Of a stretch of DNA of 64,000 nt, positions 28,659 to 37,975 are shown in pieces. A program made the position numbers and the translations under genes. The notes beneath the pieces were generated by a model that saw only the letters and a list, made by a program, of their open reading frames with translations, had not been told where the DNA came from and ran no database searches. Numbering within the stretch: the stretch's first letter is position 1; each line of letters begins with the position of its first letter. The stretch is from Agaribacillus aureus (lineage in GTDB: Bacteria > Bacteroidota > Bacteroidia > Cytophagales > Cyclobacteriaceae), in NCBI GenBank assembly GCA_030442055.1, contig JAUJEB010000007.1:248001-312000 (forward strand), written 5' to 3'.

Positions 28659-28833
28659 TCTTAAACCTGCCTGGAGGCAATTCCGGTCATTGAATGCAAT
28701 GGAGCGGATAGGTGAAGAGGAAATCCTGGGCATCATAGCATGTCAGGAGAATCTGGCAGCAGCCAGGCTGTCGCGATTCCTATTCAATACGGTGATGTTT
28801 ATCATGCTGACCATTTGCTGTCAGGGCGGATGA
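28645..28833 (+). CDS. Small membrane protein between sigma factor and lgt
   Basis: A 62-residue protein: a soluble amphipathic N-terminus (LNNLKPAWRQFRSLNAMERIGEEEILGII) and one C-terminal hydrophobic segment (LFNTVMFIMLTICC). It overlaps the sigma gene by 14 nt and the lgt start by 4 nt (ATGA), so three genes are translationally coupled. I have seen similar short proteins behind ECF factors in cytophagal genomes; an anti-sigma function is an inference. It may be the shortened form of a longer membrane partner like that at 23744. Confidence 0.6.
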   Translation: MNLNNLKPAWRQFRSLNAMERIGEEEILGIIACQENLAAARLSRFLFNTVMFIMLTICCQGG

Positions 28834-29663
28834 TTTCTTTTATTCTCTGGGATGTCGATCCCGGCATTATTCCAACATTTGAATTTTTGAGGTGGTATAG
28901 CTTATGCTGGGCAATTGGAATAAGCCTCGGATACCAGGTCCTCAGGGTCATTTACAGGAGGGAAGGACTTTCACAAAAGGAACTGGACAAGCTGGTCGTC
29001 TATGTGGTTTTAGGAACGGTAATAGGTGCGCGTCTTGGCCATATTCTATTTTACGATCCTATATATTATTTAAACAATCCGATCGAAATTTTGCCCATCC
29101 GTATTAATCCAACTTTTCAATTTACAGGACTTGCAGGGCTGGCTAGTCACGGTGGTGTCGTGGGGGCCTTATTCTCGTTATTCCTGTACAACCTTAAGTA
29201 TAAAAGGAACTACCTATGGATAGCAGACAGGTTGATGGTTGCCGGAGCTTTGCTGGGTGTGTTTATCCGATTTGGAAATCTGATGAATTCAGAAATTATT
29301 GGCATTCCATCGACGGTCCCATGGGCATTTATATTCGCAAGAATTGATCAGGTCCCCCGGCATCCTGCGCAGCTTTATGAAGCCGTCTTTTATTTTTTGA
29401 CTTTCATTTTTTTGTTCAGTTTATGGAGATCCGGAAGGGTTGGGCAATACTGGGGGTTGATATTTGGATTGGGGCTGATGTTGATCTTTGTTCAAAGATT
29501 CGTTATTGAATTTATTAAAGAGGATCAGACAAAATTTGAGGAGGGATTGATCCTGAATATGGGGCAGACGTTGAGCATTCCAATGATACTGACAGGTGCC
29601 ACCGTAATAATATGGAGCCTGAAACATGGGCCAACAAACAACGGGCTCCATCAGCGGAATTAG
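28830..29663 (+). CDS. lgt: Prolipoprotein diacylglyceryl transferase
   Basis: A 277-residue inner-membrane enzyme that moves diacylglycerol from phosphatidylglycerol to the lipobox Cys of prolipoproteins. Residues matching the essential E. coli set are present: H107 (ASHGG; E. coli H103), R147 and N150 (IRFGN; R143/N146), RHPAQLYE, and R223/E227 (RFVIEF; R239/E243). The start MISFILWDVDPGI overlaps the small gene's stop. It sits in an ECF sigma operon, an unusual place for lgt, and may be an extra or stress-related copy; that is an inference because the rest of the genome is not visible. Confidence 0.9.
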   Translation: MISFILWDVDPGIIPTFEFLRWYSLCWAIGISLGYQVLRVIYRREGLSQKELDKLVVYVVLGTVIGARLGHILFYDPIYYLNNPIEILPIRINPTFQFTGLAGLASHGGVVGALFSLFLYNLKYKRNYLWIADRLMVAGALLGVFIRFGNLMNSEIIGIPSTVPWAFIFARIDQVPRHPAQLYEAVFYFLTFIFLFSLWRSGRVGQYWGLIFGLGLMLIFVQRFVIEFIKEDQTKFEEGLILNMGQTLSIPMILTGATVIIWSLKHGPTNNGLHQRN

Positions 29664-33355: not shown

Positions 33356-34498
33356 ATGTATTTAAGAATTAACCTGGTGAAGCATGTGGTAATTTTTCAA
33401 ATGATGCTTTTCCCAATTTGTGCTTTCTCCCAGCCCCATAATGCTGTGGCAACAAATGAAAAAATAGCATTTACAAATTTATTCAGTGCCGATATGAAGG
33501 AAGGTGTTTCCTGCTACAGAATACCTGCCCTGCTTACGGCGAAAAATGGAGATCTTATAGCGGCTATAGATGAGAGAGTGCCCTCATGTGATGACTTAAG
33601 GTCTAATGCCGATATAAATATTGTTATTCGAAGAAGTAGCGATAATGGAAAAACATGGTCGGAAATAGAACCCATCGTGGATTACACTCCCGGTGAATCT
33701 GCCTCCGACCCCTCAATGATCCTGGACAAAGTTACCGGAGAAATTTTTATGTTTTTTAATTACATGAACCTATATGGGGCAAAAGGGGAATATTATTTTA
33801 AAATGGTTAGAAGTCAGGATCATGGAAAGACATGGTCTTCTCCTGTAGATATAACTTCACAAATTTCAAAAAAGGAATGGAAGAAGGATTTTAAATTTAT
33901 TACCTCTGGCAAAGGGATACAGACCAGGTCAGGGAAATTGCTTCATACGCTTGTTAATTTGGATAGAGGCCTCTACATTTTCGGGAGTGATGATCATGGA
34001 AAATCATGGCACCTTATCGATACCCCAATCACTCCGGGGGATGAATCTAAAATAATTGAATTAAGTGATGGCAGTTGGATGATAAATAGTCGGGTAAATA
34101 AATCCGGATTAAGATATATTCATACGTCAACAGATAACGGTATAAGTTGGACTTCAAAACCTGACTCTTCTCTGATCGATCCGGGCTGCAATGCAAGCCT
34201 GATTTATTATGCCACCACTACCGGGCGGGAAAATACTAAGAGAATACTTTTTTCTAATCCCAAGACCTCAGACACCAGGGAAAACTTGTCGGTTCAAATA
34301 AGCTATGATGAAGGAAAAACCTGGTCTGACAGCAAGACTATATATACAGGTAAATCGGCTTATTCTTCCATGTGTATTTTAAAAAATGGAAGCATAGGCC
34401 TGCTATTCGAGAAGGATAACTATAAAAAAAATGTATTTACAATAATATCTTTAAATTGGCTAACTAATGGCAAGGATAGTTTTAAATCCCAACGTTGA
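33356..34498 (+). CDS. Secreted sialidase (BNR-repeat exo-alpha-sialidase)
   Basis: A 380-residue protein with a signal peptide (VVIFQMMLFPICAFSQ). The sialidase Arg motif (F/Y)RIP is present (CYRIPALLTAKNGDLIAAIDER), and five Asp-box repeats of the form S-x-D-x-G-x-(T/S)-W are spread through it (RSSDNGKTW, RSQDHGKTW, GSDDHGKSW, TSTDNGISW, ISYDEGKTW). It is a six-bladed propeller that removes terminal sialic acids from glycoconjugates (GH33-like). No sialic acid transport or catabolism genes are nearby, so it may supply surface trimming or serve other genes elsewhere. Confidence 0.88.
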   Translation: MYLRINLVKHVVIFQMMLFPICAFSQPHNAVATNEKIAFTNLFSADMKEGVSCYRIPALLTAKNGDLIAAIDERVPSCDDLRSNADINIVIRRSSDNGKTWSEIEPIVDYTPGESASDPSMILDKVTGEIFMFFNYMNLYGAKGEYYFKMVRSQDHGKTWSSPVDITSQISKKEWKKDFKFITSGKGIQTRSGKLLHTLVNLDRGLYIFGSDDHGKSWHLIDTPITPGDESKIIELSDGSWMINSRVNKSGLRYIHTSTDNGISWTSKPDSSLIDPGCNASLIYYATTTGRENTKRILFSNPKTSDTRENLSVQISYDEGKTWSDSKTIYTGKSAYSSMCILKNGSIGLLFEKDNYKKNVFTIISLNWLTNGKDSFKSQR

Positions 34499-34613: not shown

Positions 34614-35357
34614 TTGACTATACCTTTTGAACCGGAATTTTTAGGAGTATCGGTTAATGTTCACTTGATACTTGAATATCTGGCATTTTTTATAGCCTTT
34701 CGCTATTATCTGGTATTGAGGCGGAATAGCCAAGATGCTATTTCCAACAAGAACAGGCTTTCAATTATTTTAGGAGCTATTGTCGGCGCTTTTTTGGGTT
34801 CCAGGCTCATGGGGTACCTGGAAAATCCGATAATTGTATTAACACAAGCAAATCTTTTTTACCTGCTCAATACCAAAACGATCATGGGAGGATTGTTTGG
34901 CGGTTTAATTGGCGTCGAAAGTGTCAAAAAAATGATCGGGGAAAAGCAATCCTCCGGTGATTTATTCACGTTGCCTATAATCGCTGGAATATTTATAGGA
35001 AGAATAGGATGCTTTTTAAGTGGAACAAATGAATTTACCTATGGCACAGAAACATCCTTTTTCATGGGAATGGACCTGGGTGATGGCTTACTAAGACATC
35101 CCACATCCCTCTATGAATTGGTATTCCTGGTCCTGCTGTATTTGATAATTAACTATTTTAAAAAGTCAAAAAAATTGGAAAATGGAGATTTGTTCAAGAT
35201 CTTCATGATTTCGTATTTTGGTTTTCGCTTCCTGATAGAATTTATCAAACCCAATGTTTTCTGGGTATTTGGGTTAAGCAGTATACAGTGGCTATGTATT
35301 ATTTGTTGGATATACTATATCAAATTTTTTAGAAAAGTCTTTCAATATGCCTACTAG
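34614..35357 (+). CDS. Lgt-like membrane protein lacking Lgt key residues
   Basis: A 247-residue multi-pass protein homologous to prolipoprotein diacylglyceryl transferase. Retained: R130 (GRIG), RHPTSLYE (161-168), R205 and E209 (FRFLIEF). Replaced: the essential His of HGG is M91 (TIMGGLFGG) and the Asn after GRIG is C133 (GRIGCFLSG). The fold and part of the lipid-binding site are therefore kept, but normal lipoprotein modification is unlikely. Start is TTG 34614 (a stop lies just before it). It overlaps the radical SAM gene by 11 nt, so the two are translationally coupled. A role in handling a diacylglycerol or phospholipid substrate is an inference. Confidence 0.8.
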   Translation: MTIPFEPEFLGVSVNVHLILEYLAFFIAFRYYLVLRRNSQDAISNKNRLSIILGAIVGAFLGSRLMGYLENPIIVLTQANLFYLLNTKTIMGGLFGGLIGVESVKKMIGEKQSSGDLFTLPIIAGIFIGRIGCFLSGTNEFTYGTETSFFMGMDLGDGLLRHPTSLYELVFLVLLYLIINYFKKSKKLENGDLFKIFMISYFGFRFLIEFIKPNVFWVFGLSSIQWLCIICWIYYIKFFRKVFQYAY

Positions 35358-36735
35358 GAAATATACATATTATGACTATACCCTCAGTCTTTGCCCTGAA
35401 TGCTTGAAGCGTATTGATGCTAAAATTGTATTCGAAGGCGAAAATGTTTTTATGCTGAAAAGATGCCCGGAACACGGTGCCTCGAAAGTACTGATCGCTG
35501 ATGACAAGGAGTATTATAAAAACATAAGAAATTACAATAAACCTTCCGAAACACCCTATAAGTTTAATACGGCGACTCACTACGGTTGCCCTTATGACTG
35601 TGGGCTTTGCCCTGACCACGAGCAACATTCCTGCCTGACGGTAGTGGAAATCACCGACAGATGTAACCTGACCTGCCCCACATGCTACGCCGGCTCATCA
35701 CCGACCTATGGCAGGCACAGAACTTTGCAGGAAGTCAAAGTCATGCTTGATACCATTGTCGAAAATGAAAGAGAACCTGATGTAGTTCAGATCAGTGGTG
35801 GAGAACCCACCTTGCACCCCCAGTTTTTTGAAATACTGGATTATGCGAAATCTTTACCTATTAAACACTTGATGGTCAACACCAATGGCATTGCCATTGC
35901 CAAGGATTTTAATTTCGCGAAGCGTCTTAAAAGTTACACCCCGGATTTTGAAATATATCTTCAGTTCGACTCCTTTAAGAAATCAGTACTTGAAACCATG
36001 AGGGGAGCGAATTTGATAGGTATTCGCGAAAAAGCCCTCGAACATTTAAACAAATTAAACTTATCCACTACCTTGGTCATAACCTTGCAGAAAGGATTGA
36101 ATGACGATGAAATTGGCAAATCCGTATCATTTGCACTGGAACAGAGATGCGTTAGGGGCGTAACCTTTCAGCCAACGCAAATAGCGGGTAGATTGGATAA
36201 TTTCAACCAGCAAACCGATAGAATTACCTTAACGGAAGTAAGAAGAAAAATTTTGGAGCAAACCGATATTTTTCAACCCAACGATTTGATTCCCGTTCCC
36301 TGCAACCCCGATGCCCTGATGATGGGCTATGCCGTAAAATTGGGTGGAAAAGTGCTACCATTAACCAGGTACATTGACCCGGCCGACCTGCTGGATAACA
36401 GTAAAAATACCATCGTATACGAGCAGGATGAAGGCCTCCATCGCAGAATGTTTGAGATTTTCAGTACCGGGACATCGACCGAAAAAGCGTCCTCAAAGCT
36501 ACACTCATTGCTCTGCTGCCTGCCCTTTGTCAAAGCCCCGGACCTTGGCTATGATAATTTGTTCAGAATCATTATTATGCAATTTGTAGATGCATATAAT
36601 TTTGATGTAAGGGCCATAAAAAAATCATGTGTTCATATTGTAAACAAGGATAATAAAATTATTCCCTTCGAAACAATGAACCTGTTTTACAGAGACGAGA
36701 AAAAAGAATATTTAGAAAAACTTAGAGCATTATAA
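35347..36735 (+). CDS. COG1964/Tes-like radical SAM enzyme with extra Fe-S cysteines
   Basis: A 462-residue protein. An N-terminal knuckle has C16-x2-C19 and C40 (LCPEC...RCPEHG). A second cluster C81, C85, C88, C96 (GCPYDCGLCPDHEQHSC) precedes the canonical radical SAM motif C106-x3-C110-x2-C113 (DRCNLTCPTCYA). QISGGEPTLHP is the SAM-binding GGE motif. The layout is that of COG1964, the group containing archaeal Tes, which joins lipid tails through sp3 C-C bonds. Together with the overlapping Lgt-like gene this suggests a lipid or lipid-anchored substrate; the reaction is unknown. It is cytoplasmic or membrane-associated. Cysteines near 394-396 (LLCCLPF) may bind another cluster. Confidence 0.85.
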   Translation: MPTRKYTYYDYTLSLCPECLKRIDAKIVFEGENVFMLKRCPEHGASKVLIADDKEYYKNIRNYNKPSETPYKFNTATHYGCPYDCGLCPDHEQHSCLTVVEITDRCNLTCPTCYAGSSPTYGRHRTLQEVKVMLDTIVENEREPDVVQISGGEPTLHPQFFEILDYAKSLPIKHLMVNTNGIAIAKDFNFAKRLKSYTPDFEIYLQFDSFKKSVLETMRGANLIGIREKALEHLNKLNLSTTLVITLQKGLNDDEIGKSVSFALEQRCVRGVTFQPTQIAGRLDNFNQQTDRITLTEVRRKILEQTDIFQPNDLIPVPCNPDALMMGYAVKLGGKVLPLTRYIDPADLLDNSKNTIVYEQDEGLHRRMFEIFSTGTSTEKASSKLHSLLCCLPFVKAPDLGYDNLFRIIIMQFVDAYNFDVRAIKKSCVHIVNKDNKIIPFETMNLFYRDEKKEYLEKLRAL

Positions 36736-36751
36736 AATAATTTTATTAGAA

Positions 36752-36940
36752 ATGGAGGGAATTCTGACAATGATCATCATCCTGTATCTCATAGCTCATA
36801 CTCCTGCGATCATTATGCTTATCATTGGGCTAAGAAGGCTAAAAACCAAACCTGAAAGCGCCAAAACATTATTAATAATTGCCGGGATCTATTTCCTTAT
36901 CGGAGGTGGAATATGCGGGTCACTTTTAACCGGAGGTTAA
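36752..36940 (+). CDS. Small two-helix membrane protein of the Lgt-like/radical SAM set
   Basis: A 62-residue protein with two hydrophobic segments (about 7-26 and 39-58) joined by a basic loop (GLRRLKTKPESAK) and ending GGGICGSLLTGG. It lies 16 nt after the radical SAM gene. Similar small proteins with the same GGGICGSLL ending occur in other Bacteroidota. No function is known; it could be a partner or scaffold of the membrane step. Confidence 0.7.
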   Translation: MEGILTMIIILYLIAHTPAIIMLIIGLRRLKTKPESAKTLLIIAGIYFLIGGGICGSLLTGG

Positions 36941-37102: not shown

Positions 37103-37975
37103 ATGGACTCACTTCCATTTGCCTTAGTAATGATCTCGATTTTTACCCATGCTTATTGGAATTACCTGATCAAGCGGTCAGGAAACAAACATATATTTAC
37201 AGCATTGAGTAAACTGGCGGAGATTACAATTTTCCTTATTCCTGCCATTTACTTTTTGGCAACCACCGGATTTAGAATGGAGTTTTTGTTACTAATAACA
37301 GTTGCAGCTTCCATAACTTTTTTGAATTACTTTTTTCTTGCCAGCGCTTATAAATATGGAGACCTTTCTCTGGTATATCCTATTTCCAGGTCAAGTATTA
37401 TTTTTCTTCCGATTATCGCCTTCTACTTTATTGACGAAAGGATAGACGGCATAGGAATATCGGCCATTCTTATGATCCTTCTCGGAACTTTTGTTATGCA
37501 CATGGAATCACCCGATAAACAAGGGATTCAAACGATCCTCAAAAATATTGGTAACAAAGGGAGCATTTATGCGATGCTGGCTGCGCTTGCGGTAGCGGGA
37601 TATACACTCTGGGATAAAATATCCATTTCTAAAATGGAACCGTTTTTATATTTCTATATGTATACCTTCATCGTGGCCATATGCTACAATTCGATGATTT
37701 CCATAAAATTTAAAAAAGAACAAATCAAGCACGAATGGCGCATTAACCGGGCTCGAATTTTGCAAGTCGGGTTTTTTAATAGCTTCACTTATGTTTTGAT
37801 TCTTACCGCACTGACCATGAGTAAGGCTACTTATGTAGGTGGACTAAGGCAGTTGAGTATAGTAATAGGCGCATTTCTTGGCTATAAATTACTGGGTGAA
37901 AAATTGACTTTGCCCAAAATCATAGGCATTGTAATTTCCATTATTGGCGGTAGCTTAATCTATTGGGCGAAATAA
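37103..37975 (+). CDS. EamA/DMT-family transporter
   Basis: A 290-residue protein with ten hydrophobic segments in two EamA-type halves: ALVMISIFTHAYWNYLIKR ... LVYPISRSSIIFLPIIAFYFIDERI ends the first, and ARILQVGFFNSFTYVLILTALTMSKATYVGGLRQLSIVIGAFLGYKLLGEKLTLPKIIGI the second. It exports or imports a small metabolite, unknown. It is 162 nt after the small membrane gene, so membership in that operon is possible but unproven. Confidence 0.87.
   Translation: MDSLPFALVMISIFTHAYWNYLIKRSGNKHIFTALSKLAEITIFLIPAIYFLATTGFRMEFLLLITVAASITFLNYFFLASAYKYGDLSLVYPISRSSIIFLPIIAFYFIDERIDGIGISAILMILLGTFVMHMESPDKQGIQTILKNIGNKGSIYAMLAALAVAGYTLWDKISISKMEPFLYFYMYTFIVAICYNSMISIKFKKEQIKHEWRINRARILQVGFFNSFTYVLILTALTMSKATYVGGLRQLSIVIGAFLGYKLLGEKLTLPKIIGIVISIIGGSLIYWAK

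Follow-up and report, generated by a model that had tools for sequence, protein, structure and literature searches.

Three consecutive genes of the Bacteroidota member Agaribacillus aureus probably constitute an undescribed system that fixes or remodels a lipid on a microprotein, a system found in two phyla. The genes were analysed in a 64,000-nucleotide (nt) stretch of the genome (contig JAUJEB010000007.1, positions 248,001 to 312,000, forward strand), called here the window. They code for a Lgt-like integral membrane protein, a radical S-adenosylmethionine (SAM) protein and a small membrane protein with a conserved C-terminal cysteine. We favour, with somewhat less than even confidence, the reading that they form one functional module in which the microprotein is the dedicated lipid acceptor of the Lgt-like enzyme, at this cysteine, and the radical SAM protein modifies the lipid. 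No published description of the module was found in the open-licence literature searched.

Bacterial protein lipidation is usually described as a single pathway (Lgt, LspA, Lnt) acting on N-terminal lipoboxes. If our reading is right, a second Lgt branch would exist, dedicated to substrates of its own and allied with a radical lipid enzyme, which would broaden the meaning of bacterial lipoprotein, and one set of bacterial Tes-like proteins would acquire a role. The module is small, and its prediction is sharp: one cysteine should show a shift in mass. Its features in the window are the following.

34614-35357, + strand: Lgt-like integral membrane protein, TTG start, 247 amino acids (Pfam LGT, family conservation, AlphaFold2 fold)
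35010-35012, + strand: tgc codon of Cys133 of the Lgt-like protein, at the Asn146 position (from the sequence; Cys in 105/105 of the family)
35347-36735, + strand: radical SAM protein of the Tes/TrsS kind, 462 amino acids (Pfam and 7TOL match; labelled COG1964 in an earlier note on this DNA)
36752-36940, + strand: microprotein with two transmembrane segments, proposed substrate, 62 amino acids, C-terminal ...FLIGGGIC-GSLLTGG (downstream position and Cys motif conserved)
36914-36916, + strand: tgc codon of Cys55, the conserved cysteine near the C-terminus of the microprotein (sequence and motif profile)

The open reading frames (ORFs) of the Lgt-like and radical SAM proteins overlap by 11 nt (35347-35357) and the microprotein ORF starts 16 nt after the second; the ORF coordinates thus agree with the gene order, overlap and gap given in the earlier note. 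The starts of the nearest orthologues align with the TTG start of the Lgt-like ORF.

Linkage of the Lgt-like and radical SAM genes

Of 148 genomes searched at the family level, 8, the host included, contain a full-length radical SAM orthologue (at least 69% identity), and one contains a fragment at a contig edge. A Lgt-like gene was nearby in all 8 neighbourhoods fetched (host excluded, fragment included), overlapping the radical SAM gene in 6, abutting the fragment in 1 and lying at 3.7 kb in 1. Among 395 Bacteroidota genomes, the radical SAM protein was detected in 34 at E ≤ 1e-20 and in 31 at E ≤ 1e-100. All of these 31 genomes, the host included, also contained a Lgt-like protein at E ≤ 3e-32, against 1 of the 364 others (G164; G-numbers designate genomes and L-numbers loci), with a Fisher p of 3e-45 that is uncorrected for relatedness; the sampled genomes are related, hence not independent. 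The earlier note had set a lack of co-occurrence in other genomes as the ground for giving up its proposal, and the two genes do co-occur. They lie at most 1.3 kb apart in 29 of the 31 genomes and on separate contigs in G181 and G414. The other three genomes with a radical SAM match comprise G212 and G443, whose proteins are of the Tes type and have no Lgt-like gene nearby, and G241, which carries a remote version of the module.

A larger set of loci was obtained by scanning contigs with the radical SAM alignment, which gave at least 584 relatives, and the best 80 of them were studied; 79 bear titles naming Bacteroidota lineages and L178 is titled just 'bacterium'. Although only the radical SAM gene served to select these loci, 75 of the 80 have a Lgt-like gene on its strand, no more than 4 kb upstream. 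The two genes overlap in 57 of the 75 (23 by 11 nt, 16 by 29, 16 by 8, 2 by other lengths), lie within 100 nt of each other in 5, at 101-1500 nt in 10 and at 1.6-3.9 kb in 3. Two of the five loci with no such gene, L103 and L142, begin at most 310 nt from a contig end. The genes flanking the module differ among lineages. The distance matrices of the two proteins are correlated in a mirror-tree comparison (r = 0.87 for 72 pairs, with 0 of 2000 shuffles as high). Because of this co-occurrence and adjacency, the pairing of the two genes exceeds chance.

The microprotein and its C-terminal cysteine

One or more small hydrophobic proteins are encoded 3' of the radical SAM gene; they diverge fast and have in common the tail [IV][GS][LF][GS][IVT]C[GSV], a lipobox-like motif at the C-terminus that is preceded by a loop with positive charge and then a transmembrane helix. 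The earlier note had rightly recorded a small membrane protein as a partner with two transmembrane segments, overlooking the conserved Cys motif and the tandem copies. The 900 nt that follow the radical SAM gene contain 284 small ORFs, of which 81 match a strict rule ([GS]xC at most 25 residues from the end, after 15 uncharged hydrophobic residues); in the remainder of these loci, both strands counted, 5 of 3388 match it. At least one strict-motif ORF is present in 63 of the best 80 loci, with 2 to 4 copies in 12, and across the 81 matches the Cys is separated from the C-terminus by 3-14 residues. A relaxed rule gave 98/284 downstream against 18/3388 elsewhere, and 71 of the 80 loci.

The microprotein was also picked blind to the motif, as the most hydrophobic small ORF starting between -45 and +80 nt of the radical SAM stop codon, Cys being counted in the hydrophobicity filter. 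Such an ORF was present in 69 of the 80 loci. In 67 of these 69 a Cys occurs among its 25 C-terminal residues (31.5 on average in shuffles, at most 43), and 61 of the 69 have [GS]xC (5.2 on average in shuffles, at most 12). Up to four separate motif-bearing ORFs occur at one locus (L176, Hymenobacter ruricola), and three each at L121, L159, L165 and L180. Such multiple copies fit substrates better than a fixed subunit and, with the Cys motif, suggest that the microprotein is a substrate and that the lipid serves as a protein anchor, not as bulk membrane lipid.

Membrane topology was predicted by the positive-inside rule. Of the 81 strict matches, 76 carry a positive net charge ahead of the last helix (mean +3.1), and the charge of the tail averages +0.1, so that the Cys is probably at the outer face of the membrane, like a lipobox cysteine. 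The canonical lipobox, [LVI][ASTVI][GAS]C, follows an N-terminal signal peptide. The microprotein is therefore not a canonical bacterial lipoprotein, its motif being C-terminal and reading [IV][GS][LF][GS]xC. None of the microproteins tried reached a Pfam or NCBIfam cut-off (those of the window, one Mucilaginibacter, against Pfam only, and L187, L188, L184 and L200; not all were run against both libraries). No unlinked microprotein copy was found in the host genome, where the sole second match had E 0.17.

The Lgt-like protein

The Lgt-like protein scores 84.4 bits on Pfam LGT (cut-off 24.9) and 47.1 on the NCBIfam lgt equivalog TIGR00544, below its cut-off of 118.9. At E ≤ 0.001, a comparison of its AlphaFold2 model (pLDDT 89.2) with PDB folds gave E. 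coli Lgt (5azb) and no other structure (Foldseek E 4.5e-7, TMq 0.59). With Lgt of E. coli, the phosphatidylglycerol:prolipoprotein diacylglyceryl transferase, it shares equivalents of Arg143, Arg239, Glu243, Gly154 and RHPxxLYE; it differs by the lack of His103 and Tyr26, by a Cys replacing Asn146, by the tie of its gene to a radical SAM gene and by the presence of other LGT-family genes in the host. Asn146 belongs to the Lgt signature motif and is the Asn that the earlier note calls essential.

In an alignment of 105 family members, R130, R161, R205, C133, D157, G144 and E168 are invariant, and H17 (103), E21 (104) and H162 (103) nearly so; residue 209 is Glu in 84 and Asp in 21. The retention of R130, R161, R205 and E209 that was read from the single sequence thus extends to the family. 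R130 and R205 align with Arg143 and Arg239, both required in E. coli Lgt (PMC4728403). C133 stands opposite Asn146 in all 105, again as first read. The Met recorded at the place of the essential His is present in the window protein; it is not a conserved replacement, since column 91 holds M in 54, V in 37, I in 6, L in 4, A in 3 and T in 1. An alternative alignment sets F95 opposite His103 (column 95: F 55, L 42, A 6, I 1, V 1), and no His occurs in either column among the 105 sequences. Mutation of His103 inactivates the E. coli enzyme (PMC8689077). As judged from these alignments, the lipid-side residues are retained, yet a different and strongly conserved set occupies the active-site positions. 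With open frames and 58 columns of at least 90% identity across the 105 sequences, a degenerate pseudogene was rejected.

The host genome (9.39 Mb) holds four LGT-family genes: the one studied, one in the window at 28740-29663, one on contig C1 and one on contig C31 (GRLGCFNAGCCYG motif). The gene at 28740-29663 (+ strand, about 5 kb upstream) scores 132.9 bits, above the NCBIfam lgt cut-off of 118.9, and has SHGG at the place of His103 and RFGN at that of Asn146; the gene on C1 is another LGT of this kind. The C31 paralogue (L003, G000 contig C31:288335-289051) has a Cys at the Asn146 place in a GCFNAGCCYG motif; a link of this variant to a Cys-tailed microprotein was rejected, as the ORFs of the 3.7 kb locus that contains it included none.

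The radical SAM protein

The radical SAM protein matches Pfam Radical_SAM (84.8 bits) and Zn_ribbon_HMPTM (72.2 bits). Its best PDB relative is Tes/GDGT-MAS, the archaeal tetraether lipid synthase that joins lipid tails (7TOL; E 3.8e-72, and 1e-93 by profile search). The AlphaFold2 model (pLDDT 74, pTM 0.80, with parts of the C-terminal third below 50) aligns with 7TOL over 515 columns (E 4.3e-35, TMq 0.77), with MoaA far behind (2e-9). After Tes, the relatives include SkfB, a maturase of ribosomally synthesised and post-translationally modified peptides (RiPPs), both by sequence (E 1.5e-4) and by fold.

Tes has four metal sites: a rubredoxin Fe, an N-terminal [Fe4S4], a radical SAM [Fe4S4] and a C-terminal [Fe4S4]. 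The rubredoxin-type ligands C16-x2-C19-x20-C40-x2-H43, the N-terminal cluster C81-x3-C85-x2-C88 with H91 and the radical SAM cluster C106-x3-C110-x2-C113 are each conserved in 112-113 of 113 relatives, with the same ligand spacing as reported for Tes (PMC9433317). The Met439 position of the C-terminal cluster holds Met in 109/113; C319 (113/113) and C428 (112/113) are conserved, these Cys not being assigned to the C-terminal-cluster ligands of Tes. Tyr459, given as fully conserved across 1000 archaeal homologues in the Tes study (PMC9433317), corresponds to Ile431 in the window protein and to Ile in 111 of 113 relatives.

On NCBIfam, the top match is TrsS (NF045646, 331.5 bits against a cut-off of 490), covering residues 12-453 of 462, and Tes (NF045702) gives 289.2 against 450. 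Both curated cut-offs being unmet, the protein is neither a Tes nor a TrsS equivalog, and assignment as an orthologue of either was rejected. A protein from G212, a different genome of the phylum, served as control (L189:8864-10321): it exceeds the Tes cut-off of 450 with 493.8 bits, and one from G443 (L190:8107-9582) is just under it with 441.9. No Lgt-like gene was found near these two Tes-type genes in the 18 kb fetched. The window protein thus has the Tes fold of the M. jannaschii enzyme and three of its ligand-set spacings, and differs from it in score, in Ile431 and in the Lgt-like gene adjoining in 75 of the best 80 loci. It resembles TrsS (seleno)protein in having it as nearly full-length best match, and differs in score, in having no in-frame TGA and in a Lgt-like partner rather than a methyltransferase. 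Tes-like activity in bacteria is called unconfirmed in two papers (PMC8941075, PMC11868695).

A methyltransferase gene adjoins relatives that score best on TrsS (L183, L185; L186 is placed with them by neighbourhood). These radical SAM relatives of haloarchaea and Mycolicibacterium (L185:5893-8171, L186:4974-7177, L183:5971-8339) overlap or abut a methyltransferase-domain gene and have redoxin or CcdA-type genes close by. In a small tree of 19 sequences the Lgt-linked proteins stand apart from the Tes and the methyltransferase-linked ones, but support at the deep forks is 81-91, no fork among them is starred, and long branches are flagged.

Distant versions of the module

All three parts are kept in distant Bacteroidota operons (L187, L191, L192) whose radical SAM proteins are 38-41% identical. 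These hold a Lgt-like gene with GCFFxGCCYG, small membrane proteins ending LIFGSCLSILFNPK, LLFGACMVGIGGASLFNLFK or LLFGACIIGLGGYSLFH, and a gene of the ICMT family. L188 (G241) has a Lgt-like gene, a membrane protein ending LLSGGMCIFLPQPL and a radical SAM gene. In Actinomycetota, Nonomuraea L184 and Mycobacterium branderi L200 contain a Lgt-like protein with GRxGCHLTEAPGRP, a radical SAM protein and membrane proteins ending ILSAGICTGINPSLYG, ILSGGLCTGLNPADYAG and IITVGVCTGLNPAMYTGA; the Actinomycetota evidence consists of plasmid records, and the deep versions are few records. The radical SAM protein was found in 10 plasmid records. A Lgt-like match occurs in 4, from Persicobacter, Nonomuraea and two Mycobacterium, and all 4 also carry the radical SAM gene. 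Six of the 10 were opened, and among them L183, L185 and L186 have no Lgt-like gene in the 5-6 kb on each side.

C-terminal cysteine lipidation of the CaaX type, with ICMT, is eukaryotic. The module resembles it in the conserved C-terminal Cys and in a gene above the Pfam ICMT cut-off of 24 in 3 of 3 distant Bacteroidota operons tried (L187 50, L070 59 and L071 49 bits). It differs in that no prenyltransferase was seen, in the Cys standing 3-14 residues from the end and in the L070 gene scoring 93 against 160 on the NCBIfam isoprenylcysteine methyltransferase model and matching PEMT too. These ICMT/PEMT-family genes (L187:4784-5377, L070:2865-3479, L071:2787-3488) lie between the radical SAM and Lgt-like genes, and a DUF4395 gene adjoins that of L187. 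No Pfam ICMT match was found among the scanned window genes.

Proposed mechanism and alternatives

Three parts recur across the versions. One is a Lgt fold that has a Cys in its signature motif and keeps the Arg residues for lipid binding, the second a radical enzyme resembling Tes, and the third a helix whose end, probably at the outer face, carries small residues and Cys. The simplest joint reading of these parts is that a lipid is transferred to, or fixed at, the microprotein Cys and that the radical enzyme tailors this lipid. The last transmembrane helix of the microprotein would run from the positive cytoplasmic loop to the Cys on the outer side of the inner membrane, which is also where the active-site cavity of Lgt opens; the residues before the Cys form a lipobox-like signature. 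The Lgt-like protein would bind a diacylglyceryl lipid through the retained Arg/Glu residues and transfer it to the Cys, or hold it against it, with an altered active site (conserved Cys133, His17, Glu21 and Asp157) instead of His103/Asn146. The radical SAM enzyme, from the cytoplasm, would alter the lipid (tail coupling, alkylation or similar) before the transfer. What the analysis demonstrates is the genes, their conserved linkage, the motif, the fold families and the conserved positions of the metal ligands; the topology, the Cys as modified residue, catalysis by the Lgt-like protein and a lipid as substrate of the radical enzyme are inferred. A bolder version, which we regard as doubtful, is an old and patchy lipidation system beyond the N-terminal lipobox. 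In it, the Tes-like enzyme would produce a lipid of an unusual kind, for example with coupled tails, and a Lgt repurposed through an active-site Cys would link this lipid to the helix-end Cys of dedicated microproteins, giving a C-terminally lipid-anchored or membrane-stapled class in Bacteroidota and Actinomycetota.

Several observations weigh against lipidation of the microprotein by such a module. His103, the proposed catalytic base of Lgt, and Tyr26 both have no equivalent in the Lgt-like protein, so the transfer mechanism proposed for Lgt would be unavailable, and the protein could be a lipid-binding scaffold. The Cys motif departs from the lipobox in having a small residue at -2, mostly I, V or T at -1, and a C-terminal location. 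A strict-motif ORF is missing at 17 of the best 80 loci and a relaxed one at 9; 4 of these 9 run to a contig edge and L145 has an evident copy. No motif ORF was found at L147, L150, L175 and L177, where downstream sequence is present, and the first small ORF after the radical SAM gene of L115 has Phe for the conserved Cys, with an intact second copy next to it. A Lgt-like gene is missing from L147, L166 and L171, which do not lie at contig ends. Conservation of the iron-sulfur ligands is partly common to the whole superfamily, including the methyltransferase-neighbour relatives (L183, L185, L186), and a lipid substrate is therefore unproven by the ligands; the N-terminal cluster cysteines are missing from the radical SAM proteins of L188, L184 and L200. 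Vertical descent raises both the mirror-tree and the co-occurrence values.

The main rival, near the view of the earlier note, is remodelling of bulk lipid: a non-catalytic Lgt-like phospholipid platform and a structural or redox microprotein would feed the radical SAM protein, which would couple or alkylate the acyl tails of phospholipids. We judge it rather unlikely. It accounts for the loss of the His103, Tyr26 and Asn146 equivalents with the lipid-side Arg/Glu kept, and for the Tes fold and most Tes metal-ligand positions of a protein whose relative Tes binds phospholipids (PMC9433317). However, it leaves unexplained the C-terminal Cys motif, the multiple microprotein copies and the conservation in the Lgt-like protein of new polar residues (H17 103/105, E21 104, C133 105, D157 105) that resemble an active site, and the score is below the Tes cut-off. 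Of the lipid modification first proposed from the gene pair, the coupling proved real and deep, and characterised relatives of both proteins act on membrane lipids; C-C bond formation by the radical enzyme is not established (289 vs 450 bits, Tyr459 replaced by Ile).

Radical modification of the microprotein itself, for example by a thioether or C-C link at its [GS]xC tail, with the Lgt-like protein as lipid-facing chaperone or in a later lipidation, would make the module a membrane-bound RiPP-like pathway. In its favour, the proteins encoded next to the radical SAM gene are small, diverge fast, share a single conserved Cys tail and at times occur in several copies, and SkfB is among the post-Tes relatives. 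It is nevertheless improbable, given that Tes is much closer than SkfB (E 3.8e-72 vs 1.5e-4), that no cut-off was reached among the best 25 NCBIfam radical SAM models listed, and that a Cys probably outside conflicts with an enzyme acting in the cytoplasm. Very improbable, finally, are co-transcribed neighbours with separate functions, as might be suspected from the separate contigs in G181 and G414, from G164 with only the Lgt-like gene at the thresholds used and from 13 of the best 80 loci with 101 nt to 3.9 kb between the genes, since linkage is kept amid differing flanks and across two phyla, even where protein identity falls to about 30-40%.

Flanking genes and further observations

A viral origin of the module was rejected, a scan of viral contigs having given 104 pattern matches and 0 relatives. 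Anti-phage defence was rejected too: in PADLOC, the Lgt-like protein and the microprotein had no match and the radical SAM protein matched just two viperin models, through the shared core (49 and 47 bits). The module is flanked in the window by a gene for a BNR-repeat/sialidase-like protein (33356-34498) and one for an EamA transporter (37103-37975), neither of which had a BLAST match at 1e-4 in eight orthologous loci. The EamA transporter matches a phosphonate-associated family weakly (133 vs 288 bits). Named, cultured strains that bear the module among the best 80 loci include Mucilaginibacter, Chitinophaga, Maribacter and Winogradskyella.

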